From IMG/VR virus record IMGVR_UViG_3300008448_000001, positions 124,001-188,000 of that record: a stretch of 64,000 bases of DNA, one strand, 5' to 3'. The notes under the pieces were generated by a model. It had not been told where the DNA came from. It ran no database searches and saw only the letters and a program-made list of their open reading frames with translations. Within the stretch, counting starts at the first letter, position 1. Each line of letters begins with the position of its first letter. Source of the DNA: a virus. Shown here piece after piece: positions 3,440-37,882 of the stretch. A program made the translations under genes and the position numbers.

Positions 3440-6268
3440 ATGGCAACTTACGTTTTACCGCAAGTATTGGTTTACCAGGACTTCACTTCGCAACCTGCGG
3501 TTGCTGCTAATCCCTTGTGCGCTCACATCTCTGGTGGGCACGCACATCTCGTTCGTCAGTCGCAGAGCGACGAACGTGACGATGGTCGGTTAGGCCTTTA
3601 CGACAACGTTTCTGACAACGACTACGCTTGGCCCAACAAGCCCGCCGGAAGCCTGATCGACTCAAGCTACACCAAGCTGTACATCGAAAACGCGCTGTTG
3701 GCTTACTTCAGCGATGCGCTGAGTGCGGGTAGCGATGTGGAAGTTTTGAGCGGTTTCAAAAACCGCATCCGAGCGGCCTCCATCAATTTCGCATCCAGCG
3801 GAGCTTATGCGCGAGATCCGGATCTGTACGATCGTGATGTGAAAGTCGGCGACGTTATTCGAGTTCGCGGTGTGCCGACTGGCAGCGGAACGCTCGGGGA
3901 TCCGATCAACTTGTGGACTTACGTTCAGGCGTTGGTGGCGGATGCTTTGCCTGCGACTATCGCTCCTGCGACCATAGAGCCTTCTAACGCTGACACCCAG
4001 AGCTGCACACACTCTGTCACACAGACGGCAGGTCCGGTCAACTGCGTTTCGGCGACCGTCAACGGTTGCATTTACGACGGAACACCGGATGGTAAGATCA
4101 GCGAAACTTACACCGTCAAAGTCTTGGACAGCTCGGTTAACGGCGATCACACCACCGCTCGTTTACTTGTGCTTTCTGCCAGCGGTACCGACGATCAAGT
4201 CGACGTTGTCCCCTCGGCAAGCGGTTCGCCTACTGCAATTGGAAGTCGCGGGCTTACCTTGACTTTCTCGGATGCGGATACCGCCGCTTGTTCACTCTCG
4301 GCAGACAACTCCGGTGTCAGCTCGGATGACCTGATCGCGGGCCAAGAGTTCACCGTTGTAGTCAATCAAGCGTTTACGGCAACCACGGCTTTCTCCGACG
4401 GAACGTACAACAGTCGCGAAGACACGACCTACATCGTCACGGTGACCAAAGGCGGAAGCTTCGATACCTTGCCCGAGATCTCCGTTACGACCGTAGGTGG
4501 TACCGATCAAAGCGGGCCGCACGTGGTTACTGCGACTGGCGTAGATGTCAACATCGGTACGCGAGGGGTTATGATCGCGTTTGGCGCTTCCACCAAGTTG
4601 AACAAGGGCGATCGCTTTTACGTGCCCGTTCAAGGCATCAGCAACGGACCTGTTCGCACGATCGTACTGGGCCACAACCTCGACTCGACTTTTGCTTCCG
4701 GGGACGAGGTCGGCATCGACCTGTACATCCGAAAGCCTTTGCTCGAAGTCGAAGCCAACCGGACCGGCATGGCTCCGCTCACCAACTGGGAGCAGTCGGC
4801 TACTGAGTTCACCGTTAAGTCCGGTATCGTGGCCTATGACGCGAGCTGGACTGACAGCGGCGTTGCGCTGCCCTTGGAAGTTCGCTCGGCGGCAGAACTC
4901 GACTACGGAATCCTTTTCGTCGAGTATCGCGCTTGGTTGCCTACGCTGGCAAACCAGATCGGTGGCCTTTCGAACGTCGGCGATATCGACCAGATCAGCG
5001 GACCATTGACTCCCGACAACCCTCTGAAGTGGGGTGTTTTCCAAGGTGTGTCTAACAGCAACGGGACACCAGTCCTTTACACGGCTGTGACAGACCCGTC
5101 GAGTCTTGACGCTTGGGCGGAAGTGCTCGAGGTTGCTTTGACTCGCGATGACATCTACGGTCCCGTTCCACTCACGCGGGACGCGGCTGTTTTGAGCCTT
5201 TTCCAGGCACACGTGAACGGGGCTTCGTCGCCGACCGAGGCACAATGGCGTACGGGTTGGTTCAATCTTGCGGGAATTCCCGAGATTCCGATCGTTTCCG
5301 CTGGATCCTCGATTACCGGCTACATGACGGCCACGACAAACGACGGTCAAAACGCTTTAGCTGTGTTCGAAGATGACCCGTCTACCGGCGGCACGCAATA
5401 CACGATTTGCCGTGTACCTGCCGCCAACTCCGACTTCATTAAGAACGGGGTACGGGCAGGCGATATCGTGCGAGCCATCTACAACGGCGACGGTTTCGGT
5501 AATTTCACTTACAGCGAGTACATCGTCGAAGAAGTGCAATCTGAAAACCAGCTTCGGTTAGCAGCCGGTCCCGCAGCCCCGCAGACTGTACCTGCCAAGA
5601 TTGAAGTTTGGCGAAACTTGTCGCTGGATGAAGAGTCCACAGCCATCGCAAAGGTTGCGGGTGCTTACAACGATCGACGCATCCGAGCTGTTTGGCCGGA
5701 CAAAGTCGAGGGGGCGGGTCTGATTCAGGAAGGCTACTTCCTGAACTGTGCTCTTTCCGGGTTGGCGTCCGCAGTGTTGCCGCAGCAAGGTCTGACAAAC
5801 GTACAGATTACAGGGTTTTCTGCCGTTCCCCGTTCGACGCGGTTTAACAAACTGCAACTGGACAACATGGCAAAATCCGGAGTATGGATTGTCACGCAAA
5901 GTCGCGATGGAGAGATCTATACGCGACACGCGGTGACAACTGGCGACTACGAAGACATCAATCAACGCGAAGAGATGATCACACGCAACGTCGACAGTAT
6001 CAGTTATCGCGTCAAGGACTACTTCGCGCCTTGGATCGGTGTAACTAACGTCACACCTTCCATGCGGGATATCATCCTGGGCGGTGCCGACAAACTGTTC
6101 CGTCTGTTGAAGACCGAGCGATCCACGCCGCAGCTCGGCGGGCAGCTGATAGACGCAACAATTGACAGGTTCTTCATTTCGGAGGTCTTCAAAGATCGTT
6201 ATGTCCTGTATGCGACTTACACAGTACCGTACGCGACAAACAACATCGAAGTGCACCAGGTTGTTTAA
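3440..6268 (+). CDS. Contractile tail sheath protein, unusually large
   Basis: A 942-aa protein. The C-terminal part (about residues 790-942) has the recognisable sheath pattern: a stretch like KSGVWIVTQSRDGEIYTRHA, then NVDSISYRVKDYFAPWIGV, and a final beta strand. The N-terminus (YVLPQVLVYQDF) matches the start of sheath proteins that donate strands to neighbouring subunits. The middle is expanded by two related beta modules (about 215-285 and 327-395), each with a Y-V-V strand, a GTD turn and an IG-(S/T)-RG strand. These would project from the sheath surface. T4 gp18 is about 660 residues, so the insertion is substantial. The tube gene follows, supporting the call. Confidence 0.93.
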   Translation: MATYVLPQVLVYQDFTSQPAVAANPLCAHISGGHAHLVRQSQSDERDDGRLGLYDNVSDNDYAWPNKPAGSLIDSSYTKLYIENALLAYFSDALSAGSDVEVLSGFKNRIRAASINFASSGAYARDPDLYDRDVKVGDVIRVRGVPTGSGTLGDPINLWTYVQALVADALPATIAPATIEPSNADTQSCTHSVTQTAGPVNCVSATVNGCIYDGTPDGKISETYTVKVLDSSVNGDHTTARLLVLSASGTDDQVDVVPSASGSPTAIGSRGLTLTFSDADTAACSLSADNSGVSSDDLIAGQEFTVVVNQAFTATTAFSDGTYNSREDTTYIVTVTKGGSFDTLPEISVTTVGGTDQSGPHVVTATGVDVNIGTRGVMIAFGASTKLNKGDRFYVPVQGISNGPVRTIVLGHNLDSTFASGDEVGIDLYIRKPLLEVEANRTGMAPLTNWEQSATEFTVKSGIVAYDASWTDSGVALPLEVRSAAELDYGILFVEYRAWLPTLANQIGGLSNVGDIDQISGPLTPDNPLKWGVFQGVSNSNGTPVLYTAVTDPSSLDAWAEVLEVALTRDDIYGPVPLTRDAAVLSLFQAHVNGASSPTEAQWRTGWFNLAGIPEIPIVSAGSSITGYMTATTNDGQNALAVFEDDPSTGGTQYTICRVPAANSDFIKNGVRAGDIVRAIYNGDGFGNFTYSEYIVEEVQSENQLRLAAGPAAPQTVPAKIEVWRNLSLDEESTAIAKVAGAYNDRRIRAVWPDKVEGAGLIQEGYFLNCALSGLASAVLPQQGLTNVQITGFSAVPRSTRFNKLQLDNMAKSGVWIVTQSRDGEIYTRHAVTTGDYEDINQREEMITRNVDSISYRVKDYFAPWIGVTNVTPSMRDIILGGADKLFRLLKTERSTPQLGGQLIDATIDRFFISEVFKDRYVLYATYTVPYATNNIEVHQVV

Positions 6269-7053: not shown

Positions 7054-9861
7054 ATGTCACTACCTTGGAACTCCGCGCAGAACGTTAACAGCCAACCCGC
7101 CGTATTGAATGCCAAGCAGACAGGGGCGGCTCCCAGCGATTACGCCTTTCTTTACAGCCTCTTCTCTCGAGTTCAAGAGGCTACTTCTGTCGTACAGCAG
7201 TCGATCACAGGTACGGTAGCGGAAGACCCAAAAAAGCTTGCGGTGGTGCAGAACCATACGTTCCAGCAAGACACTCCGCTTCGAATGGGTAAAGTTCTTT
7301 TCGCCATACCTTACTTGCATTGTTATGTTGTGCAGTTGGCGGGTAGGCAAGGCAAATGCATGGCCGTAGCCAGTGGGCACAATGCCATGACGCCCTTAGG
7401 TGTTCGAAGCGGAGAAGTCATTCCGCCGAATTCAAACGTCATTCTGTGGAAACCGAAGAGCTCATTCCTGGCTTATATTATGGGTACAGTGCCCTCGCCG
7501 CTGTGGTCTGACTTTTACAGCCCGGCTGAGATCCTGCAGCAAGGCGGCAACACGGGTATCAAGCAGATTCCGGCTTACGTTAATCTGATCAATTCGTCGA
7601 CGGACGGTTTGGGTGTCAGGGCCCACACAGCCGGAAGGCCTCTAGACGGAACCGTTGGCGAATACGTTCGAATGTCGGAGACAGGTATTGGCTTGCTAAT
7701 TGACTCGTTCCAGGCTTACTTGCGAGTGAACGAAGCGACCGGGCTTTTCCTCAACTATTTCGACGACTACGCCAAGCTTTCCGGCGTTTCGCTCGATGTT
7801 CAATCTTATGCAACGCACGTTTCTCAGCGACTAGACGAGGGTGAAATTTACTCTCGCATCGGGCACGCCATCTACCCTTGGGAAGCTACCGGCATGTACG
7901 GGCCGGATGCCAACTTCACAAGTAGTAATGACCCGGCTAAAGTTCAGCTCGACCGTGATTTTCCGCTCGCCGAGATAGACGTGAACAATCCAGGTCAAAC
8001 CCCGATTCATCGTTTGACCGAGTACGGCGGATACCTGGGACAAGGCTATCAGCGGATGTTGATGCGTCCGTCAAAGACCAGCGGCATTCGAGTTGCGACC
8101 GATGCAGCGTCGAATGTGGATACGGGTCTTTTCCACGAGATGTTGAGCTTGGACGGAAGTTACGGCGTCCGCACTGCTAAGAGTTACTCAATCGTCAAGT
8201 ATCCTGCAATTCCTGTCCCGCAGGAGCTTCGAAAGCCGGAGGACGCGAAAGGCGACGACCTTGCCGAGAATAACAACTACCGTTTCAGTGGAGTATACGG
8301 TAGCGGCGACGAGCACAAGGTTCGAGACTGGGACGATTCGTCTGTAACCGACGTGCCGTCAATTCTCAGGGCTGCGGGCGTGATGGACATGCTATCGCAC
8401 CAGTTCAACTGGAAAGGTACGCATGCCTTTGCTTACCATGCGAAAGATTACCATTACCCGCAGGAAAAGAACGGGGGTAGTGTTCTGGCCGCGGGTGTCG
8501 AGTTTTATCGCGGCAGCATGTCTCAAGCGTACGTGCAGGTAGAACCGAAAAAGCTGGAGATCGACAAGCGATACGGCGACTCAAACTACTACAACACCAT
8601 GTCTTTTTTCCGGCTCGAAGAAGACGGAAGCGTGATCATCGCAGACGGTTTTGGTTCGCAGCTAACCATGACCGGCGGGCAGATCCGGCTGGAGGCAGGT
8701 GGCGACGTAATGATACTGTCCGGGTCCCGTGCAATCACCATGGCCGATGATGTGATTTTGCGTGCCCGATCTAACGTAGACGTGTCCGCAAGTGACAAAG
8801 ACGTCCGCATCAAGGCGGAAAACAACATACAGGTACTGGCCGGGAATGGCGGTTATGGTGGTATCTTGCTAGAAACGAAGGGGCAGGGAACGTCTCAGAA
8901 TTACCAACAAAAGATTGGCGAAGAGGTGCAATCCGCAGGCATCACGTTGTTAGCCAAAGGCTCTGCGGTTAACGCTATTTCGCAAGACAATTACATCCGC
9001 ACCGGTGTCACGAAAGAGGTCGCCGAAGGCTACGGTACGTTTATTGTGGACTGCGGCAGTGGTCGCGGCGATTGTATCAACTACGCCAGACAGCACGTTT
9101 TTGTGAACAGCATAGGACTGGGTATCTACCATAGCGCACCGGGCCAAGGCGAAGCGACCATCAACAAGTCGCACTTCTTCGGCCCGTCTTTTTCAAAGAT
9201 AAACGGCCCAACGGTATTTACTAAGAACGTTGTCATCACCGAGAACGGCGCACTTGGCGTCGAGGGGAGCGTTTACTCGAAGGGCCAGATCTTCGCTCTG
9301 CGAGCCATGGCCTGTTACAAAGGGCGAGTTGGCGACAGCTCGCAGGGAGAGACTCCGACAGCAATTCGGGACTTTATCGACGCGTACGAAGAAGCAGTTC
9401 CTAAATTCAATACCGCCGGACAGACGGCAATACAGTATCTGCAAGAAAGAGTGTGGGCCGAGAACCGTGTAGGTAATAACACGTTCCTGTTGGACGAGGT
9501 CGGATTTTCGTACCGTGACAACAGTCAAAGCGGAAACGCTTACGGGTACGCAGAAGGCAAGTTTTTCTTGCTGGAAACGCGTTGGCAGCAGCTTGATCGG
9601 ATGGGGCTGACGCAGGTCTCGTCTTCGACTTGGCAAGAGAACCCCGTGTTCTACCAAGGAAATAGCCTGTATCCTTGGCCCGGAAAGAAAAACTGGGCTG
9701 GTGACGAGACGTTTTTAGCTTACAGTAACACCGACGATTTTGTGGTTTTTGACAAGGGTGCGAAAGCCGCTAAGGACCGTGACGCGAGTCAAACGGATTA
9801 CGAGTCGCCTGTGTTTAAACCTTGGAAGCAACGTGTCTGCGATGGCAATTACAAACTATAG
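7054..9861 (+). CDS. Large spike-like tail protein with a gp5/VgrG-type beta-helix segment
   Basis: A 935-aa protein with AAGGTGAG before ATG 7054. Residues about 530-610 form a run of short alternating strands (for example GDVMILSGSRAITMADDVIL), in the style of the C-terminal triple-stranded beta-helix of T4 gp5 and VgrG. The N-terminal part (about 60-160) is beta-rich and could be an OB-like domain. The C-terminal 250 residues are alpha/beta and unassigned. No obvious lysozyme motif was found. The position, between tube and tape-measure genes, differs from the common site beside the hub. Membrane-puncturing spike is the best reading; a baseplate scaffold is an alternative. Confidence 0.6.
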   Translation: MSLPWNSAQNVNSQPAVLNAKQTGAAPSDYAFLYSLFSRVQEATSVVQQSITGTVAEDPKKLAVVQNHTFQQDTPLRMGKVLFAIPYLHCYVVQLAGRQGKCMAVASGHNAMTPLGVRSGEVIPPNSNVILWKPKSSFLAYIMGTVPSPLWSDFYSPAEILQQGGNTGIKQIPAYVNLINSSTDGLGVRAHTAGRPLDGTVGEYVRMSETGIGLLIDSFQAYLRVNEATGLFLNYFDDYAKLSGVSLDVQSYATHVSQRLDEGEIYSRIGHAIYPWEATGMYGPDANFTSSNDPAKVQLDRDFPLAEIDVNNPGQTPIHRLTEYGGYLGQGYQRMLMRPSKTSGIRVATDAASNVDTGLFHEMLSLDGSYGVRTAKSYSIVKYPAIPVPQELRKPEDAKGDDLAENNNYRFSGVYGSGDEHKVRDWDDSSVTDVPSILRAAGVMDMLSHQFNWKGTHAFAYHAKDYHYPQEKNGGSVLAAGVEFYRGSMSQAYVQVEPKKLEIDKRYGDSNYYNTMSFFRLEEDGSVIIADGFGSQLTMTGGQIRLEAGGDVMILSGSRAITMADDVILRARSNVDVSASDKDVRIKAENNIQVLAGNGGYGGILLETKGQGTSQNYQQKIGEEVQSAGITLLAKGSAVNAISQDNYIRTGVTKEVAEGYGTFIVDCGSGRGDCINYARQHVFVNSIGLGIYHSAPGQGEATINKSHFFGPSFSKINGPTVFTKNVVITENGALGVEGSVYSKGQIFALRAMACYKGRVGDSSQGETPTAIRDFIDAYEEAVPKFNTAGQTAIQYLQERVWAENRVGNNTFLLDEVGFSYRDNSQSGNAYGYAEGKFFLLETRWQQLDRMGLTQVSSSTWQENPVFYQGNSLYPWPGKKNWAGDETFLAYSNTDDFVVFDKGAKAAKDRDASQTDYESPVFKPWKQRVCDGNYKL

Positions 9862-9869
9862 GACCGAAC

Positions 9870-10739
9870 ATGAGTAATAGTTTTGAGGCGGAAAAAGAAC
9901 TACTGGCTGCGGTAGCCAAGTCGCAGGGAATTACTGTCGAACAGCTGCTTGAGCAGCAAGGTAAGACCGTTGCGAAGCCGACAAGCGAAGATTCGACGGT
10001 TGTTTTCAGCGAGGTTCCCTCGCCGATCGCGGAGACAGCCACGTTGGCACCGGCAGATCCCACCGTCACTTTCGTGCCAAATCTCCCGGACTTGGCACCG
10101 CCGCCGCCGGCTGCCGTAGAAGAAAGCGTTTCGGAAACCTCGGCGGCCTCCGTCGCACCTATCTGTACGCATTGCGGCTGGGATCAGCGACGCCCTCCGC
10201 TTGATCCGCCTGACAAGCAGGACAAACTGGTTTTCCTCGCAACCGTACTCGGACAAAAGGTTTTCACCAAGGACTACAGCACGCTTGGCGGCAAACTGAA
10301 AATGTCTTTTCGCGGTCTGACAGTGCAAGAGCTTGACGCCCTGTACACTTCGGCCTACCGGGAGCAGCGAGCGGGACGCATTGAATCCACACAAGAGTAT
10401 TACGACTATCTGAATCGGCAGCGTCTTTTCCTGCAGCTTCAAACTTTAAATGCTTCGGCTAGCGCGATGCATTTTGTGCTTCCAGACGGCTTGTCGAAAA
10501 AAACAAACAAGCTGTGCGGAATAGATTGGGAAGATTTCTTGAAGGACAAGGCGGAATACGACGCGGAGGATGAACTGATTCCGCAGATTGAAGCATACGT
10601 GCTTAAGGAAGTCTTGTGCACTGAGCATTTGCAACGAATTGTTTCCCACTACTGCGCTAAGTTCAATCAGCTGGTGGCCAAGTTGGAGGTTTGCATAGAC
10701 GACGAAAATTTTTGGAAAGAGACCGCGACGCCGCTCTAA
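9870..10739 (+). CDS. Tail assembly chaperone, G-like (0-frame product)
   Basis: A 289-aa protein with GGA (9861-9863) before ATG 9870. It lies directly upstream of the tape measure and overlaps a -1 frame reading frame, the classic place of lambda gpG. Residues about 30-95 are a Pro/Ala/Thr/Val-rich linker, followed by a CTHCGW motif (around residue 98) and a helical C-terminal domain. A slippery heptamer AAATTTT near the 3' end (10706-10712) would allow a minority of ribosomes to shift -1 and make a longer G-T fusion. The chaperone would coat the tape-measure protein during tail assembly. The call rests mainly on gene order plus the frameshift site. Confidence 0.75.
   Translation: MSNSFEAEKELLAAVAKSQGITVEQLLEQQGKTVAKPTSEDSTVVFSEVPSPIAETATLAPADPTVTFVPNLPDLAPPPPAAVEESVSETSAASVAPICTHCGWDQRRPPLDPPDKQDKLVFLATVLGQKVFTKDYSTLGGKLKMSFRGLTVQELDALYTSAYREQRAGRIESTQEYYDYLNRQRLFLQLQTLNASASAMHFVLPDGLSKKTNKLCGIDWEDFLKDKAEYDAEDELIPQIEAYVLKEVLCTEHLQRIVSHYCAKFNQLVAKLEVCIDDENFWKETATPL
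10706..10712 (+). promoter_or_regulatory. Programmed -1 frameshift site, slippery heptamer A AAT TTT
   Basis: In the G reading frame the codons are GAA AAT TTT TGG. The heptamer A-AAT-TTT fits the X XXY YYZ rule exactly, so both tRNAs can re-pair on AAA TTT after slipping back one base. The new frame continues AAA TTT TTG GAA and stays open to 11239. The 0-frame stop lies 25 bases beyond the heptamer (10737). This is the expected design for tail chaperone G/G-T pairs. Confidence 0.85.
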
Positions 10740-11239
10740 CGCTAAAGGCTGCCATGCGTGGTGCGTTGGACTTTTCGCAGGCTAACGTAAAAGATCACGG
10801 GTGGTGGCTTAAATGGCGTTACGTCACACGGTCTCTTGCAGCTGAAGAGCACACAGAGCTGGTTGGTAACTTGTACAGTCTAAGCCTGGCACTGTTGTCC
10901 AACTCGAGAATAGACACGGCGGCACAGCACAAGAGTACGCTTGAGCGGTACAGCACGTTGCGGGAAAGCAAGCAACCTTGGGCGGCAGCTTTGGAGTCGC
11001 AATATTTACGCAGCGAAGCCGACGAGTATGCTGTACAATGGGAAAAACTCACCGGGTGGAAACCGAACGACGCGGAGGCCTTGGCAAAGTGGGAAGAGGA
11101 AATTCGAAACGCTACGAGCGGCAAACGCGAAGAAAGAGAGCGGCAGGCAAGACAAGAGCAGAATCGGCTTGACACCTTCCACGCAGCTGTCGAAGAGATA
11201 CGTAAAAAGCGCTTAAAGCAGCAAGGACGCCGCCGATGA
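10706..11239 (+). CDS. Tail assembly chaperone T extension (-1 frame of the G-T fusion)
   Basis: This -1 frame (open from 10691) lacks a good start at its 5' end. It is best read as the C-terminal part of a G-T fusion of about 455 residues made by slippage at 10706-10712. An ATG at 10754 with AAAGG upstream could also start it independently. The product is helical and strongly charged, ending in a Lys/Arg/Gln-rich coil (EERERQARQEQNRLD). That suits a domain that binds the tape measure, whose gene starts in an ATGA overlap with this stop. In lambda, gpT is translated only as gpGT. Confidence 0.8.
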   Translation, partial: KFLERDRDAALTLKAAMRGALDFSQANVKDHGWWLKWRYVTRSLAAEEHTELVGNLYSLSLALLSNSRIDTAAQHKSTLERYSTLRESKQPWAAALESQYLRSEADEYAVQWEKLTGWKPNDAEALAKWEEEIRNATSGKREERERQARQEQNRLDTFHAAVEEIRKKRLKQQGRRR

Positions 11240-14200
11240 ACTACATGAACGACCCGAACATCCAGCTGTATTTGATGCAGCAGACCGGGTACTCCGGTTT
11301 CCCGGGTTTGGGTATGCCCGGACCCGGTGGAAACAACTTAGCCGCTACTGCAAACATGCACGGTCCGGCAGTTTTCGGTGCCGGTAGTGTAGACACCTCG
11401 CCTTTAGCGCCTTTCGGTCTCCACAACTACGGTCTTCCGGGGCAGTTATTAGGCGCCGCAGGCAACATATACCTGTCTCAACGCCTGCAACAAGCCGGTT
11501 TAATTTCGACCGGAAACGCGGCGTCTATGCAGCAAGCAATCGACGCAAGACAGATGCAAGCCACACAGCTTCAGGTAATGAACGGGGTCGCAAGCCAGGA
11601 TGCGGCTAACATCTACCAGTTTTTCCGGGGAAGCGCGGCAATCGCCGGGGTTCCGATGACATCTAGTCAGCGGTTTGCGGCACAGCAGATGGCGGGAAAC
11701 ATTGCCCAGCAAAGCCCGATGATTTCGATGCTTGTGCCCGGCGGATCCGAATTTCTGGACATGATGTCGGGTCCGTCCGGCAGCGTGCAGGCTATGGCGT
11801 CGCAGATGATGGAAGCCAACAGGTACCGCATCGACCCGGTCACGGGAAAGTACGGCTTAGGTGCGGATGCTAACACCGGACTCATTAAAAACGTTTTTAG
11901 CAACATGTTTGCCGCCGACAACATTCCTAGGATGCAAGGTCTGCGGGCTGGCGACGTAGGGCAAATTTATCGCACGTTGTCCGCAGAGGGATTGGCCGGT
12001 CCGACAACAAGTCTTCGAAACCGCACGCTTGACGCTATCGAAGCTGCAAGGCAAACGGGCGTCAGCGCGGAGGACCTGGCCAACGGTACCGGTATAAGTG
12101 CGGAAGCCCTTTCCGGTAACTTGAACGGGCTAAGCAACGCACAACTTGGACAGTTGCGTAAAAACTCTTCCGTGCAGGAGCAACTCACGAAGGCTGACGC
12201 GCAGCAGATCTCCAGTCAGCTTCAGGAATACGTGGGTGCAATCTCGGCTATGCGGGAAGTGTTTGGTGAAGCCGGAAACCCCAATGCACCCGTGCCACAG
12301 CTTATAGGCGCATTGAAAGCGTTGACCGGTGGCCAGATGCAGAAGTTCGACCCCGCGTCGCTTGCGAATATGGTTCGAGACATGCAGGCCATGAGCCAAA
12401 TGTCGGGCAAGAGCGTGGATCAGCTTTTGGCAATGAGCCAAACCGCTAACTCAATGAACACGACGATGCTCGGATCGCACGCAGCTAATTTCAATCCTGC
12501 AACGATGGCCGCGGGCGTGGCAGGCGGTATGGCTTTCTCTCAGGCCGGAGGCGCTACGGGATTCGGTGCGCTTAATCGACAACAAGCAGAACAGGCCACG
12601 ATGAGTTTGTTCAGTCGCGGCCTAGGCTCTGAAACGGCGCAAGCCATGGGTGCCTTGTTGCGTGTACGGCAGGCTGGTGGCTTTTCAAACAACGCCGCCG
12701 GGCAACAGCTTCAGGCGATTATGAACGCGGCGGCTGCTGGCGAGGACACGTACACCTTCAACGGAACCACTCACAACATGCCGACTAAACTTACCGAGTT
12801 TAGGTCTTTGGCAGCCGCAGGTGGTCTGGCAGGAGGCGATGCAAACACCTTTAACATGATGCTCACCGACACCACTGCGAACATGCGAGCGCTGGCGGAA
12901 AACCCGGAAATGCAACAGGTGGCTTTTCAGCAACAACGCCGTGAAATCAACCAGAAACTTAATCAAGTCATGGGCTTCAGGCTCAGCGGCGAAACGATTT
13001 TAAGGACGGGCATTCCCGATAATGCACAAAGGGCAGATGCTTCTCGTGCAATAAGTGCCGCCGGGCTTGACGCGTTAAACACGCTTTCTCCGGCTGAAAT
13101 GCAGAACCCGGAATTGCGAATAGGTGCCATGGCAGAGGCTATTCGCGCGGAAGCTGCAACCTACAACGTTACGATGTCGGACGAGCAGGCTCGAGCCGTT
13201 GCTGCGGGGCAATTTGGGCAAGCGGAACAGACGGTAAAAGGCTACGGCTTTGAGTCTTTTACGGCTTACTCGCAAGTTCACGGAAGCCAGGTTTCACAGG
13301 CACGCAATGCGGCGCAGCAAGCTGCGGCTGTGCGAAGCTCGGTAAATGAATCCATGGCTAAGATGCAGGGTGTCGGCGGTGTGCAGGGTCGTATCGGCTC
13401 CGCCATCATGCGTCAAGCCGATCGAGCAGCGGGCGGTCAGCCCGTTAACATGGATACGTTGCTACAGGATGTATTCGGCGGTGCCTTTTTGCCGGAGCAG
13501 CAGCAAATAAGCGGACCGCTTGCGCGGGTGCAAGCTGCGTACGAGAAGGCGCGAGCGTTAGAGGCGCAATTCGCTGAGGCTTCAACGCCCGAGGAGCGAC
13601 AACGTTTGCAAGAAGAAGCGAAACAAATAAAGACCGAACTCGATACGGCGATCGAGGAAGCCGGAAGCGCTATCGAGGTCAGCGGGCTGGGTGCTGCACA
13701 AAACTTGGCCAAGTTGACACTTGGGAATTACGACGAAGACGCCAAGAAGCTTGGCATGACGCCTGAGCAATACCTGGAAGCCGTCAAGTCCGGGAAAATG
13801 CCTTCATCACTTTTGGCGATCTCGGACAAAGAAGTTCTAGCCAAAGCCAAAAACGCAGAATCGATTATTTCTTCAACGGATCGCGATATCTCGCGTTTCG
13901 ATGCTGACCTGCAATCGAAAGACCCGGAAGTCCGACGGCGAGCGTCAGCTTCGGTTGCTGCTATCAGGGCTAAACGTGAAGTTGCTTTACGCGACAGGAA
14001 TGCCGGTATGCTGGCCATGGGTTTGACTCCGGGCGATCCGAAAGACGAGGCCGAGTATAAGAAACAGCTGGCTAATCAAGGCTCGATCGGCTTACTCGAA
14101 AGGCGAGCTAAAGACTACGAGGCGGGTCGAGAAGCGTTGCGGTCTCAAGGCCTCAGCGAGAAAGAAATCGACAACAAGATAGAAGAGTCCGTGAAGCTGG

Positions 14201-14760
14201 AGCAGACGGCAAGGGACAACGAAGCCGAAGCGCAAGCCAGGGTTTTGCCTACCGAAGAGCTGAACACGCTGGCTGACGCCTTCGGATTAGAGGCAGCGGA
14301 CGATCGCAAAGGTTTTGCCGAAAAGCTGAAAACGGAAGAAGGCGACTCGTCTGCAAATCAAAAAATGCTGGCGACCGTGCTTAAAAGGCTGGACAAAAAC
14401 AAGAACGTAGACGGTGCTAACGCAATTGAAAAGCTGGATTCTTTAACGGACAAGTATGCGGAAGCGAAAGGTGATCCCGAGAAACTTAAGCAGTTGGCTA
14501 AGTCTTACAACATGTCGGTCGGAGATTTGAACAAAATGATGCAGCAGACGGAGTTCTTGGGTATGCGGGAGGAAACCGGGACTTACACACAGGAAAAGCT
14601 TGCAAAGGAAATGTCTGCGGTTGCGGGACGAGATATCGCAGCGGAGACGGCGAGTGAAAGTGCTTCCACTCAGCATATTTCCGGCGAAATTCGAGTTACG
14701 GGTGACGTAGTAAACGGTACCGGTACGCTGCAAGGTGTTACAACCTCTCTGGGGAGCTAA
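11236..14760 (+). CDS. Tape measure protein
   Basis: A 1174-aa protein starting at ATGA overlap with the chaperone. It is almost entirely Ala/Gln/Met/Leu-rich predicted helix, with coiled-coil heptads in the second half (about 770-1130), a glycine-rich N-terminus and a beta-prone C-terminal tail (HISGEIRVTGDVVNGTGTL). Length, composition and location after the G/G-T pair identify it. Using the usual rule of about 1.5 angstrom of tail per residue, the tail would be roughly 175 nm, a long myovirus tail. No lysozyme or peptidase motif was noticed inside it. Confidence 0.9.
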   Translation: MNYMNDPNIQLYLMQQTGYSGFPGLGMPGPGGNNLAATANMHGPAVFGAGSVDTSPLAPFGLHNYGLPGQLLGAAGNIYLSQRLQQAGLISTGNAASMQQAIDARQMQATQLQVMNGVASQDAANIYQFFRGSAAIAGVPMTSSQRFAAQQMAGNIAQQSPMISMLVPGGSEFLDMMSGPSGSVQAMASQMMEANRYRIDPVTGKYGLGADANTGLIKNVFSNMFAADNIPRMQGLRAGDVGQIYRTLSAEGLAGPTTSLRNRTLDAIEAARQTGVSAEDLANGTGISAEALSGNLNGLSNAQLGQLRKNSSVQEQLTKADAQQISSQLQEYVGAISAMREVFGEAGNPNAPVPQLIGALKALTGGQMQKFDPASLANMVRDMQAMSQMSGKSVDQLLAMSQTANSMNTTMLGSHAANFNPATMAAGVAGGMAFSQAGGATGFGALNRQQAEQATMSLFSRGLGSETAQAMGALLRVRQAGGFSNNAAGQQLQAIMNAAAAGEDTYTFNGTTHNMPTKLTEFRSLAAAGGLAGGDANTFNMMLTDTTANMRALAENPEMQQVAFQQQRREINQKLNQVMGFRLSGETILRTGIPDNAQRADASRAISAAGLDALNTLSPAEMQNPELRIGAMAEAIRAEAATYNVTMSDEQARAVAAGQFGQAEQTVKGYGFESFTAYSQVHGSQVSQARNAAQQAAAVRSSVNESMAKMQGVGGVQGRIGSAIMRQADRAAGGQPVNMDTLLQDVFGGAFLPEQQQISGPLARVQAAYEKARALEAQFAEASTPEERQRLQEEAKQIKTELDTAIEEAGSAIEVSGLGAAQNLAKLTLGNYDEDAKKLGMTPEQYLEAVKSGKMPSSLLAISDKEVLAKAKNAESIISSTDRDISRFDADLQSKDPEVRRRASASVAAIRAKREVALRDRNAGMLAMGLTPGDPKDEAEYKKQLANQGSIGLLERRAKDYEAGREALRSQGLSEKEIDNKIEESVKLEQTARDNEAEAQARVLPTEELNTLADAFGLEAADDRKGFAEKLKTEEGDSSANQKMLATVLKRLDKNKNVDGANAIEKLDSLTDKYAEAKGDPEKLKQLAKSYNMSVGDLNKMMQQTEFLGMREETGTYTQEKLAKEMSAVAGRDIAAETASESASTQHISGEIRVTGDVVNGTGTLQGVTTSLGS

Positions 14761-15280: not shown

Positions 15281-16071
15281 TGTACAACCACGCAAGAACT
15301 TTGCTGTTGAACCAATCCGGAGAAGGCGGTTCACAGCTCATTTATCCGGGCGATGAACTTATTCCCGAGGATTTTAGACCTGTAAAGCTGCCGACTTATC
15401 TGCAAGTTGTGCGGTCTATATTGTTTGGCATCAGCCCGGACCGCGTCATGTTGAACTACCGAAGCTGTCAATTTTTACGATTGATCCAGTCAACGGAGCT
15501 GCAGTCGCACATCGCAGAATTAGACAAACGAATCACGTACAGCCCTTTCGATTCGCGGCTGTTGGCGACGGAACTGTTCCAGCCCTCAGCGGTTGCAAGC
15601 CAGCCTGTCGAAGATGCTGCTATCTATATTAACGGAAGCGATCTGTCTCCGGACGCCTCAGGTCGGTGCGAGTATTCTTATCTTGTCTCGGTCTTAAGTG
15701 GCGACCTCGTTGTACAGCGTACAGTTTCTCCGGAAGCGAACACTATTACGTCGTTGACATTTACAGCCGGTCTAAGTCAGGAGGTCGAGCTGCCGTACTC
15801 GGCTTATCGGGTTCGCGTAAACGAACTTTCTGAAGGTTGCACGTGGCGGGTTCAAGGGTACTACCGTCCGTCGCGATCTCTGTCGGAAATCGACGAAAGC
15901 CTGCGAAGTATAGGCCAAGAAAACGTTTTACAGTTGTTTGGAGAATCTCCGGCAGAGCCGTACATGACCTTTTACAACTGCTGGCAGAAGCATCCTGAAT
16001 TTGCCTACCGGCTGGGCGGTATTTTGTTGGCGCACATTTACCGAACAGAGGAAACGCGTAATGGTGGGTAA
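15280..16071 (+). CDS. Putative baseplate protein
   Basis: A 263-aa protein in a TAATG overlap with the preceding gene and overlapping the hub gene by 11 bases. The N-terminal third is helical (PTYLQVVRSILFGISPD). The centre is a beta domain with a clear AAIYINGSDLSPDASG strand-turn pattern like a carbohydrate-binding or Ig module. The C-terminus is helical. Family not recognised. It is sandwiched between the tape measure and hub genes, so a baseplate role is likely. Confidence 0.55.
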   Translation: MYNHARTLLLNQSGEGGSQLIYPGDELIPEDFRPVKLPTYLQVVRSILFGISPDRVMLNYRSCQFLRLIQSTELQSHIAELDKRITYSPFDSRLLATELFQPSAVASQPVEDAAIYINGSDLSPDASGRCEYSYLVSVLSGDLVVQRTVSPEANTITSLTFTAGLSQEVELPYSAYRVRVNELSEGCTWRVQGYYRPSRSLSEIDESLRSIGQENVLQLFGESPAEPYMTFYNCWQKHPEFAYRLGGILLAHIYRTEETRNGG

Positions 16072-17770
16072 ATCTAACACGTATGCAACTGTCGACTTGT
16101 CTGGCAAACAAGGCGGTGCGAAAATTGTAATAAAGGTTGCAGACACCGAGATACCTGCGTCTATGTTCTCGATGAACTATTCGCTTAACTCTATCCCAAC
16201 GGCCACCGCAGCGGTACCGCTTGGACGCGACGCAAGGACAGGTAAGCCGTCTGCCGTCTACTCGATCGCCAAAGACCTGAAGCAGATGGCACCGGTGGTT
16301 GTGACGCTTGTCGGAAGCCTTGGCGACTGGGCTCCCGCGGGTCTGAATGCGGCAAAGCAACAGTTTCCACGAGGTGAATTTGTGCTGTTCACGGGCTACA
16401 TAGCCGGCACTTCTTACCGCCGAAGTAACGGAAGCATTGCGCTTGTTCTTAGTTTAGTGAACACGCTCGTTGATTTGGCTTTGTCTTCCTGCGGTAGCCG
16501 CGACGCTGTGCCAGGTGCCCCGCACGATCTTATGCTCCCAATACTTCACCAAGACTCCGGTGCTAAGACTTACATGGACGCTGCAAGTCGTTTTATCAGT
16601 GAGCTACCTATCGCGATGAACCTTGACATCGCGGAAGGGTTGCTCACGGTGCTCACCAAGATAGCTAAAGACAACCTGATACAGGCGACTTCTGCTTGGT
16701 GTAACAGTGCGCCACCGTCCGCGTTAGTGGATAACTTGCTGTCAAACACGCGTGCGTTGCAGGCGATATCGGGCGTTCTCGAGTGGAAAGGGTTCATTAA
16801 TCTTCTCGACAACAATCAACCGACATACGTTAAGGACTACCCTTTCGAGGTTGATTTGAACGCTAAGCAAGCCCTTTCAAAGAGTATTGGGAATCGCTTA
16901 AACGCCTCATTTGCCGGGACAAGCATGTGGCACACGCTGATAGGCTCCCTGCTGCCAGACATCGGGCTTTCGGTCGTGCCGCTCGCAGACTCCGCCATCA
17001 TTGCACCCGCCTTCGAAATGGCTCGGGAAGCTGGCGCCGTAATCTGGACGTCCGACGTAGCCGACATGCACTTATCCGTGCGATCGCAGCGTCCGCTCTT
17101 CGGAGTAGGCGTGATGCACGAGCAGCACATGGGAAGCCTACCTGCACAATCTAAACAGTGCGTTGGCGGGTCCTACACCGCAAGCCTGGACGGCGTGGTG
17201 GACGGGATGTGGCTTTTCGTGCCCGCTCCGGACTGGCTTTCGGCCTGGGACAGCCTCGACGACAATGCGGTCAACGGCAACGGAAGCGTAAACAACTTGT
17301 TGACGCAAGTTGTGAACACTGCTGTGGGAAGCGACAACTCAGCGGTGCAAGAGCAAGCCGAGACAACGGTTGTCGACTGGAATGACGTGTCCAACAAGTA
17401 CGCTCAAATGATTTACGCTGCGAACGCTTTGCAAGGCCGCGAAGGAACGTTAACGGGAAAGTTGCGTTTCGACATAGCGCCCGGCAGCACAGTCGTAATC
17501 CGTGCGGACGCCGCAACCAAAAGTGCAGGTATTGACGACCTTGCGACAGATATTTACGGTTTCGTGAACCGTGTTACCGTTACTATCAACGCCCAGGATG
17601 CCAGTGCGACAACGTCTTTCAACCTAGCGAATTTGCGAACGGCGGAGGAGAATGACTTGTCGCGGTTCTCAATGGATTCGCACCCGTTTTACGGGGTAAA
17701 GTATTTCAACTACGCGCCATTGATCCCGGGCTTCGAAAAGCTGACGGAAGCCGAACGCAAAGCAATTTAG
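16061..17770 (+). CDS. Putative baseplate hub protein (gp27/late-control-D-like)
   Basis: A 569-aa protein; ATG 16061 was chosen because upstream in-frame codons lie inside the previous gene. The C-terminal part (about 450-545) has the hub-type pattern RFDIAPGSTVVIRADA, then VNRVTVTINAQDASATTSFN and an LR...EEND segment, as in gpD/gp27-like hubs, where a short beta barrel binds the substrate channel. The N-terminal 130 residues are beta-rich (TEIPASMFSMNYSLNSIPTA), as expected for the first tube-like domain. The hub links the tube end, spike and wedge. Identification is by pattern and position, not by search. Confidence 0.65.
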   Translation: MVGKSNTYATVDLSGKQGGAKIVIKVADTEIPASMFSMNYSLNSIPTATAAVPLGRDARTGKPSAVYSIAKDLKQMAPVVVTLVGSLGDWAPAGLNAAKQQFPRGEFVLFTGYIAGTSYRRSNGSIALVLSLVNTLVDLALSSCGSRDAVPGAPHDLMLPILHQDSGAKTYMDAASRFISELPIAMNLDIAEGLLTVLTKIAKDNLIQATSAWCNSAPPSALVDNLLSNTRALQAISGVLEWKGFINLLDNNQPTYVKDYPFEVDLNAKQALSKSIGNRLNASFAGTSMWHTLIGSLLPDIGLSVVPLADSAIIAPAFEMAREAGAVIWTSDVADMHLSVRSQRPLFGVGVMHEQHMGSLPAQSKQCVGGSYTASLDGVVDGMWLFVPAPDWLSAWDSLDDNAVNGNGSVNNLLTQVVNTAVGSDNSAVQEQAETTVVDWNDVSNKYAQMIYAANALQGREGTLTGKLRFDIAPGSTVVIRADAATKSAGIDDLATDIYGFVNRVTVTINAQDASATTSFNLANLRTAEENDLSRFSMDSHPFYGVKYFNYAPLIPGFEKLTEAERKAI

Positions 17771-17786: not shown

Positions 17787-18521
17787 ATGATGAACGATTA
17801 TTTAGAAGACGAATTTCGCCCGGCCTTTCAGACGTGGCAGGCCGATAAGACGCCAACCGGTAATGCCGCCTTTTTGAAAGCGATCGACCCTGTCATTAAC
17901 CAGGGCCTTCAAGCTTACGGTGACGACAGCCCTTTGCTGCGAAGCCGCGCAAGGTTATTGGCCTTAGACGCTGCGAACAAGTACGATCCTAAAAGGTCTA
18001 GGCTGCGGTCGCACATTGTTACAAATATGCAGGGACTCAGGCGGATATCTCGTCAACAAAACCAGATTGTCAACGCTCCCGAGCGTATTGTGCTTGAAAA
18101 CCACAAGCTTCGGTCGGCTACGCAAGAGCTTGCCGATGAGCTGGGGCGAGAACCAACGGATGCAGAGCTTTCCGATTTCATGCGGGTTTCGATTCCGCGT
18201 ATCGCCAAGATAAGGAAGTACCAGCCGGGATTCAGCACGGGTCAAGCCGAAAGTCCGGAATCAAATTTTGAAAGCATGGCCAGCAGGCTTCCTGGCGACA
18301 CCGGTGCCTCGGATCTCTGGTTACAGGTGGTGCATCAAGATTTAGATCCGATTGACCAGCAAATTTTAGAAATGACTCTCGGTATGAATAACAGGCGTAA
18401 GTTTTCCAACCTAGAGATCGCAAAAGCGCTGAACCGAACGCCAGCGGCTATTACGCAGCGGAAAGAAAAAATCCAACGTCTTTTAGACCAAGAACAAGCT
18501 CTTTCACCTTTTATCTCGTAA
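17787..18521 (+). CDS. Sigma-70 family RNA polymerase sigma factor-like protein
   Basis: A 244-aa protein. Residues about 112-150 read ATQELADELGREPTDAELS then IPRIAKIRK, the hallmark of sigma region 3. Residues about 198-236 form a region 4 helix-turn-helix (FSNLEIAKALNRTPAAITQR). A helical segment before them (about 50-100, DAANKYDPKRSRLRSHI) resembles a reduced region 2. It is embedded between the hub and wedge genes and transcribed with them. It could direct host RNA polymerase to phage late promoters, or it may be a structural protein reusing the fold. The transcription role is inferred from the family. Confidence 0.75.
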   Translation: MMNDYLEDEFRPAFQTWQADKTPTGNAAFLKAIDPVINQGLQAYGDDSPLLRSRARLLALDAANKYDPKRSRLRSHIVTNMQGLRRISRQQNQIVNAPERIVLENHKLRSATQELADELGREPTDAELSDFMRVSIPRIAKIRKYQPGFSTGQAESPESNFESMASRLPGDTGASDLWLQVVHQDLDPIDQQILEMTLGMNNRRKFSNLEIAKALNRTPAAITQRKEKIQRLLDQEQALSPFIS

Positions 18522-35104: not shown

Positions 35105-37882
35105 ATGGCGCCTACGACGCAGTGCCCACAGGGACCGCAGTCACCCGTGTTTGACATCGTCAAATGCGACGTGCCTTGCATTTTCCCTATTCCAGGTGGA
35201 AACTGGCTGATAAACCCACAGGTTCCGCAAGCCCCAGCGGATATCTTTGATTGTCCGTCGCTGCCTGTTCCGTTGCTCGACCCGGATCCAATTTGCCCAA
35301 TTCTTTCCGCCCAAGACGACATCACCACCAACGTGGTACCGATCGGAAGCGAAAGAGTTATTTTTACAGTGACAAAGGGTCAATGCTGCGATTACGTGTT
35401 GAACTTGCAGGTAGACTTTCCCTGTCCGGAAATAACGGGAGAGGCGAACGTCACTACCGTAGGACCTGGCGGAGCACCCTTTGCCAATTTAAACGTCAAC
35501 AAGTCTGGCGATTGCTCCTTTGACATTCAGCTGAACATCGGCTTGCCCAGCCCGCAGCTTGGACCGCAAGGACCGCAAGGACCGCAAGGCCCACAGGGTG
35601 CAGAAGGCCCACAAGGTGCAGAAGGGCCGCAGGGTGCAGAAGGCCCACAAGGACCGCAGGGGCCGGCTGGCCCACAGGGCCCACAAGGCCCGCAAGGTTT
35701 AATCGGACCACAAGGTTTAATCGGACCACAAGGTTTAATCGGACCGCAAGGAGCGGAGGGACCTCAAGGTACGGCAGGCCCGCAAGGTACACCCGGCCCT
35801 CAAGGCCCAATAGGCCCTGACGGTAATCCCGGGCCCGACGGCAATCCTGGGCCTGACGGTAACCCTGGACCGGACGGCAACCCCGGTCCTGACGGCAATC
35901 CCGGAGACCAAGGACCCCAAGGCGACCGCGGACCCCAAGGTCACCGTGGCCCGCAAGGTTACCCTGGCTACACGGGGGCCACCGGCTATCGTGGACCACA
36001 AGGGTATCGAGGTCCGCAAGGTTATCGCGGCCCTCAAGGATATCGCGGAGCGCAAGGCTACAGAGGTCCGCAAGGCTACAGAGGTCCGCAAGGTTACGAG
36101 GGTCCGCAAGGGCCACAGGGTCCCCAAGGAAAACGCGGCCCACAAGGCTATCGCGGACCACAGGGCCACCGTGGGCCACAGGGTTACCGTGGTGCGGAAG
36201 GCCCGCAAGGCCCTTGTTGCGAGGGATCGACAGGTACCACTGGGCCAACTGGTCCAACCGGTCCTACAGGTCCAACCGGGCCTACGGGTCCAACCGGGCC
36301 GACCACGCCTACTTACGAGTTACTCATCAGTTGGGAATTCAACGATCAACTGACGCCCGAGGTTGACCCGCCAGCCCCGTTAAAGTACGCCGGAGACAGC
36401 GAACTTTTCTACGCGGACCCCGACGCGGAATCGGCAAGGCAACAAGCTTTCTCGTTGCACGGTCAGATTTACTTCAACAACGCTTCGCTGGCTGCGGTCA
36501 CGCACATCTATGTCGAGAAATCAAACTACAACAGCGTAGACATATCCGCGTTGCTCGCCACAGCTAAACCCACCGACACGTTAAAAACTCGCGTGATGTC
36601 CGACGTCAACAAGTTCGGCATTTATCGAGTCTTGGCCGTCACGGAAGAAACAACGCTTTTCGACTACACAGTTGAAGCGATAACAACTAACGGCGCTTAC
36701 ACGTTGCTGGATCAGGTCGTTCTCGAAATTCAACCCACAGGTGCCCAGGGTGCAACGGGTGCGACCGGCCCAACGGGTAGCGGTGTGCCGGCGGGCGGAT
36801 TGACCGGGCAGGTGCTGGCGAAAAACACTGACACAAATTACGACACGGTTTGGATAGACAACTACGCCAAGGAACTACGCGTCACCGTCAAGAACATGTC
36901 CGGCGGTGTCATCAACAAAGGCCAAGCCGTTATGGCCACCGGGGCGACAGGGGATACGATCGAAGTTACTCTGGCAAACGCGGACGGTACTGTTCTTCCA
37001 CGTTACATGCTCGGCATAGCATCTGAAAACATAGCCAGTGAAGCCTCGGGTTACGTTACCCTGATTGGCGACATGCAACACCTGAATACCCTCAGCTACA
37101 CTGTGGGTACGGTGCTGTGGTTGAATCCGAGCACGCCTGGCGGGTTAACGGCGACAGAACCGGCGGCGAGCACTATACGCATGCCGGTGGCCATCGTTAC
37201 GCGGCAGCATGTCGAGAGTGGTCGAATTTATGTCCGCATGTATTTGCAGCAGACGGCTTTGCATGAGCTTTTTGACGTTAAGTTCAGCAGCCTGCAAAAC
37301 GGTAATTACCTTCGCTACGATAGCACGCTTTCGGCTTGGAAGAACGATGCAACCAGTCCCACGGGGGCAACCGGAACACAGGGCGCTACAGGGGCCACGG
37401 GCCCAGGCACAACAGTAAATGCGACTGCGACAAACACCGACGCCACGTTCTATCCCGTGTTCGTCGCAGCCGCTGGGAGTAACCAGACACCGAGTGTCGA
37501 CACAACGGCACCGTCGCTGAGCTACAACCCGAGCACCGATTTGCTCAACGTTGGCGGTTTGACCGCGAACAAGTACGCAACAGGTACCGGCATAGTTTCG
37601 GTGGTAACGGGTACAACTCGATCGCTGAGCAGTGCGGACAACGGTATTGTCTTAGAGTGCAGCAGCAGTTCGGCAGTGACAGTCACGGTTCCCACCGGGC
37701 TTCCAGTGGGTTTCACACTTACAATAATTCAAACTGGAACAGGTCAAATATCGTTTAGCGCGTCTGGGACCACGATAAACAACCGTCAAAGCCACACCAA
37801 GACCGCCGGGCGATGGGCCGTGGTATCGCTGATTCAACGTAGTACTAACAACTTCATTTTGGCTGGGGACACTGCCGCATAA
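35105..37882 (+). CDS. Collagen-like tail fibre protein
   Basis: A 925-aa protein. Residues about 153-398 are collagen-type Gly-X-Y triplets ([21 protein letters not shown]), about 80 triplets. A near-C-terminal GPCCEG break (Cys371-Cys372) resembles the cystine-knot GPCCGG of type III collagen, which cross-links three chains. The N-terminal 150 residues are a cysteine-bearing globular domain and the C-terminal 500 residues are a beta-rich tip. The latter has an [20 protein letters not shown] segment of the kind seen in fibre domains, plus two short GATGATGP collagen breaks. The trimeric fibre probably contacts the receptor. Confidence 0.9.
35562..36303 (+). repeat. Collagen-coding triplet repeat tract
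   Basis: The DNA encodes ([12 protein letters not shown])n with near-identical short units. Examples are GGTTTAATCGGACC repeated three times around 35696-35745, five GGxCCxGACGG units at about 35815-35900, and nine-base GGTCCAACC units at about 36246-36300. Such tracts are prone to slipped-strand changes in fibre length. The minus strand is also open here but mirrors the tract. Confidence 0.85.

Follow-up and report, generated by a model that had tools for sequence, protein, structure and literature searches.

Organization of the locus

The window analysed here, a stretch of 64,000 nucleotides covering positions 124001-188000 of a 204.8-kb virus record, contains a contractile-tail gene cluster in which two overlapping open reading frames (ORFs) lie directly before the gene for the tape measure protein (Table 1). 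Close to the end of the first of these, the codons GAA AAT TTT TGG (10704-10715 in the frame of ORF 9870-10739) hold the heptamer A AAT TTT in the exact X XXY YYZ phase that a preliminary description had given for it. The same description had the −1 frame running unbroken to the tape measure, and this too was borne out: the frame is free of stops from 10661 to a TGA at 11237-11239 that overlaps the tape-measure ATG at 11236, ending four bases into the tape-measure gene. A −1 shift at the heptamer would yield a predicted G-T fusion of ∼456 residues. Heptamers of the X XXY YYZ form occur at 0.38% of positions, giving an expectation of ∼0.10 over the ∼25 in-phase positions of the overlap. The heptamer in the window alone is therefore weak evidence, not beyond chance in that ∼10% of such overlaps would have one; it is conservation across relatives that lifts it far above chance.

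Table 1. Features of the putative chaperone and tape-measure locus in the window.
Feature	Position (strand)	Length	Remarks
Contractile tail sheath	3440..6268 (+)	942 aa	PHROG tail sheath, E 2e-6; syntenic in relatives
Upstream ORF, putative tail assembly chaperone 'G'	9870..10739 (+)	289 aa	Frame 0; syntenic homologues in all mapped relatives
Shine-Dalgarno-like GGAGGT	10685..10690 (+)		15 nt upstream of heptamer; possible stimulator
Slippery heptamer A AAT TTT	10706..10712 (+)		X_XXY_YYZ phase exact; P-site AAT to AAA, A-site TTT to TTT
−1 frame 'T' extension	10712..11239 (+)	175 aa	Joined to upstream product by predicted frameshift
Long extended hairpin, candidate frameshift stimulator	10717..10837 (+)		Begins 4 nt after heptamer
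Zero-frame stop TAA	10737..10739 (+)		24 nt past heptamer
ATG, only plausible independent start of second ORF	10754..10756 (+)		AAAGG five bases upstream; inside hairpin; not conserved
Tape measure protein	11236..14760 (+)	1174 aa	Counterparts in relatives (by homology or by position) have 397-2044 aa

The surrounding gene order is shared. All 16 of the 16 mapped relatives have a tube-like gene, a spike-like gene, the pair, a long ORF and the same downstream tail genes, with the sheath gene preceding them in those relatives where a match turned up within the stretch. The long ORF matched the window tape measure by BLAST in 11/16 and was placed by position in the rest; variation in its length is what a tape measure would show. 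That length spans a roughly fivefold range (397-2044 residues; L081-L096) although the other tail genes match, so that tails of widely differing length are predicted among relatives.

Several other genes of the cluster deserve mention. The 935-residue protein encoded at 7054-9861, between the tube gene and the pair, is DUF2345-like (spike-type; weak Pfam match, E 0.0014), and this unusual position of a spike-like gene is kept in all mapped relatives. A protein resembling sigma-70 region 3 (17787-18521; Pfam E 1e-7) has its gene within the tail/baseplate cluster. BLAST homologues occupy the same place in G012, G013, G016, G018 and G024, and in Arash the annotation of gp10 is RNA polymerase sigma factor. 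Taken with the RNA polymerase that the phage encodes, the sigma-like protein suggests a sigma factor that is co-packaged or expressed late. Collagen-like triple-helix repeats are encoded at 35105-37882 (Pfam E 3e-36), and L008 matches tail-fibre and collagen-like minor-tail PHROGs at 15286-16824; both products are likely to be tail fibres.

Identity of the upstream protein

Searches of Pfam, PHROGs and PDB sequences gave no family match for either protein of the pair. A structural model of the upstream protein, of modest confidence (pLDDT 63) and ordered at about residues 131-280, matched no PDB structure, and Foldseek comparison with viral models gave best E values of 0.002-0.03, none below 0.001. 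The best named matches (E 0.02-0.6) were Gp181 and Gp182 of Bacillus phage G together with tail assembly chaperones of Rhodococcus, Gordonia, Arthrobacter and other phages. The pair is putatively assigned as chaperones by its position, the predicted frameshift and the similarity of fold rather than by sequence homology. Residues 99-105 of the upstream protein form a motif of the CxxCGWD type, equivalent to one half of a zinc-ribbon-like pair, which is conserved in the near clades, takes related forms in G022 and G024, and is missing from G012, G013, G016 and G019.

Conservation of the slip site

When viral and genome contigs were scanned directly with the pair, only two were recovered, one identical and one (L003) with 69% protein identity. 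Tblastn of the pair against phage records gave no matches, DNA-pattern searches added no genomes, and wide alignments of the pair were too diverged to serve for locus scans. The wider search therefore used as its marker an RNA polymerase beta-like protein (L009) encoded upstream in the same genome, with which 29 contigs were gathered; profile searches of these, together with L003's own record, recovered the pair in 17 records, all of them metagenomic contigs. By RNA polymerase the nearest named phages are Salmonella phage Arash and Vibrio phages D69, D181 and D148, and two of them, Arash and D69, are in the comparison set of 19 distinct genomes, in which G007 and G015, identical at the site, were counted once. 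The phages compared are members of an RNA-polymerase-bearing jumbo-phage family, mostly uncultured.

The second ORF is in the −1 frame in 19/19 of these genomes, and the two ORFs always meet at one homologous codon pair. The heptamer there is A AAT TTT/C in 13 (A AAT TTT in G000, G001, G003, G004, G005, G008, G010 and G014; A AAT TTC in G006, G018 and G019, among others), G GAT TTT in five (G012, G013, G016, G022 and G024) and G ACT TTT in one (G007/G015). The conserved slippery sequence in the overlap is hence A AAT TTY or G GAT TTT in 18/19, and a requirement for exactly AAATTTT was rejected, the conserved property being N NNT TTY in which the first bases match. L003 has the same heptamer as the window, in unchanged surroundings. 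In Arash the gp2/gp3 site reads GCA AAT TTC TAA and in D69 TTA AAT TTC TAA, in both cases an A AAT TTC heptamer with the stop immediately next; since the −1 frame of D69 opens just one codon ahead of the heptamer and the stop follows directly, the shift there cannot be elsewhere. As to conservation of the heptamer in relatives, then, the site and the arrangement are kept throughout, but the exact letters vary (GGATTTT, AAATTTC, GACTTTT). At the level of sequence, A-type and G-type heptamers interchange at one homologous site, an observation that is new here. In the G ACT TTT lineage (contigs L062 and L063) only the Phe codon can re-pair cleanly in the −1 frame, yet the two-ORF layout is retained.

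The preliminary description had proposed that a comparative alignment should find synonymous changes sparing the heptamer, and this was the case. The codon preceding Phe ends in T in 19/19 genomes, and the wobble base preceding that codon equals its first base in 18/19. Calculated for 13 representatives from the codon usage of each genome separately, the joint probability of a P-site codon ending in T is ∼10^-7.5 and that of a preceding wobble base matching the first base of the P-site codon is ∼10^-7.2, although both figures treat the representatives as independent and are made too small by shared ancestry. The slippery synonymous positions are retained even at rare codons, G019 keeping AAT (6% of Asn) and GCA (4% of Ala) at the site. 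These patterns point to selection acting at the nucleotide level on the synonymous positions of the heptamer.

Downstream RNA structure

The region immediately after the heptamer is strongly folded. Positions 10713-10872 have a minimum free energy of −64.6 kcal/mol, compared with −50.2 for shuffles (z −3.7), and form mostly one extended hairpin. A permutation test, in which synonymous codons after the zero-frame stop were shuffled with the protein unchanged, gave a z of −3.9 for the hairpin region of the window. L003 retains a comparably large hairpin, with 5 of the 47 window pairs broken against 9.7 expected (P 0.0135; folding energy P 0.01). Over the 19 sites, which are not fully independent, the mean codon-permutation z was −1.86 (Stouffer −8.1), whereas 145 control windows from the same genes had a mean z of −0.19 and a minimum of −2.82; five slip sites reached −3.5 or lower. 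A stem starts ∼6-8 nt after the heptamer in G006, G007, G008, G010, G016, G019 and G022, and in G012 the main part of the stem does. By the permutation test G004, G006, G013 and G016 showed no excess of structure (z near zero or positive). Stable structure close downstream of the heptamer, which in a canonical −1 signal starts about 5-9 nt behind it, is accordingly present in the window and enriched group-wide, without being significant in every genome.

A second candidate stimulator, the GGAGGT upstream of the heptamer, was rejected as a clade-wide conserved element: it is found in G000, G001, G003, G004 and G005 and as GGAGGC in G024, and is absent from G014 and the distant clades.

Translation of the second frame

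Conserved −1 frame residues, [LY]E.DR...L.....G..D[FY]..A, begin right after the slip. In G004 no ATG, GTG or TTG occurs before 50 nt past the zero-frame stop, that is, beyond the conserved motif. In G001, G006, G010, G012, G016, G019, G022 and G024 starts are absent from the motif region save for the slip-site TTG or starts upstream of the slip site. The TTG found in most other relatives is a product of slip-site TTTTG, and G003, G004 and G005 are without even that. Because several relatives have no start codon in the conserved stretch after the slip, ribosomes must enter it through the first ORF. A structure prediction for the extension agrees with this, its first helix (residues 2-15) starting at the slip point; a start at 10754 would remove most of that helix.

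The position 10691, previously listed as the beginning of the second frame, is merely the first TTG of the −1 frame and is unusable as a start because it lies directly on GGAGGT. The earlier statement that the −1 frame has no strong start is correct at its 5′ end, but the ORF as a whole does offer the ATG at 10754 with its AAAGG.

Alternative explanations

We consider programmed −1 ribosomal frameshifting, yielding two tail-assembly chaperones from one start, to be the correct reading of this locus with a probability of about 0.95. The most serious competitor, which we nonetheless regard as improbable, is translation of the second ORF alone, by initiation or termination-reinitiation at the ATG at 10754, shortly past the stop of the first ORF. 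A convincing independent start, in combination with the absence of a fusion product, had been named beforehand as an observation that would speak against frameshifting, and the window does contain this plausible ATG with AAAGG five bases ahead of it; ATG, TTG or GTG also stands at the equivalent place in G005, G003 and G014, and the annotations of Arash and D69 put the start of the second gene further on. The ATG is not conserved, however, being GTC in the 69%-identical L003 and missing in most others, and conservation of the −1 protein reaches upstream beyond every possible start, with its predicted first helix beginning at the slip point. An independent start would, moreover, leave unexplained both the selection on the synonymous positions of the heptamer and the −1 frame that always overlaps.

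The same fusion could arise if RNA polymerase slipped on the A4T5 tract and added a base to some mRNAs. The window has a short homopolymer tract, GAAAATTTTTGG, and the phage encodes its own RNA polymerase, yet the run is not kept among relatives (AAATTTC, GGATTTT), while codon-phase features relevant only to tRNA re-pairing are; homopolymer runs of 3-5 are also short for polymerase slippage, and we judge this explanation very improbable. That the heptamer is a coincidence, accompanied by a sequencing error or an accidental overlap of unrelated genes, could draw on the ∼10% of overlaps expected to have such a heptamer in phase, but is negligibly probable with the same arrangement in 19 distinct genomes, cultured or named phages included.

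Under programmed frameshifting, most ribosomes would end the 289-residue 'G' product at the TAA at 10737. A minority, probably slowed at the large downstream hairpin, would move back by one base at A AAT TTT, where we propose that tRNA-Asn re-pairs on AAA and tRNA-Phe on TTT, and would read 175 further codons in the −1 frame to give the 'G-T' fusion. If lambda is a guide, the short and the fused protein would together cover the tape measure and bring in subunits of the tail tube. That frameshifting takes place, how often it does so, how the tRNAs behave and that the products act as chaperones are what we infer. For the G ACT TTT lineage one could imagine slippage mainly via tRNA-Phe on T_TTT together with the hairpin, with P-site pairing tuning the ratio of products, an idea that we hold to be rather unlikely; if true, the swaps between A AAT and G GAT would be a natural series for the tuning of the chaperone ratio.

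Comparison with known systems

The lambda heptamer is G GGA AAG, and the phage described here differs from lambda in using another heptamer, in being a contractile-tailed jumbo phage, in having a spike-like gene between tube and chaperones, and in the lack of a detectable sequence-family match for its pair. It resembles lambda G / G-T, a frameshift that is widely conserved, in that two overlapping ORFs precede the tape measure, the −1 slip site lies late in the first ORF, and the fusion would share its N-terminal domain with the short product (PMC5009743). The suggestion, made from the window alone, of lambda G/GT logic in a large contractile phage is supported by the 19-genome comparison, by the enrichment of RNA structure and by the place of the pair, immediately ahead of the tape measure among the genes of a contractile tail. 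Bacillus phage G is also large and contractile-tailed, and its gp181/gp182, described as a frameshift pair (PMC8570332), are the best named fold match to the upstream protein; its record lists the two as tail assembly chaperones, with gp182 as a joined product, and the tape measure comes next. A profile search of the present pair against phage G gp181/gp182 gave no sequence match.

The sites themselves also have counterparts. G_GAU_UUU followed by UGG is the established frameshift site of pea enation mosaic virus RNA 2 (PMC5009743), and the heptamer and UGG context of G012, G013, G016, G022 and G024 are identical to it. As pea enation mosaic virus RNA 2, like the G_GA-type sites of dianthoviruses, belongs to a plant RNA virus, where a replicase gene is read by a eukaryotic ribosome, the likeness is one of analogy between sites, not of homology. 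Among the non-canonical backward motifs used by PRFect is 'twoonefour', found mainly in actinophage chaperones (PMC10885494), and GGATTTT appears to fit this motif by its name.

Significance

The kind of system is known, whereas the clade is new and unannotated. The comparison identifies a putative chaperone pair and a tape measure in a family of large phages with tail proteins that fall into no chaperone or tape-measure family. It also provides a corrected annotation for Arash gp2/gp3 and for Vibrio phage D69 genes 2/3, which are listed as separate hypothetical proteins. The conservation of the predicted frameshift across proteins that are only ∼20% identical, with slippery codons kept against codon bias, suggests selection on the ratio in which the two products are made.
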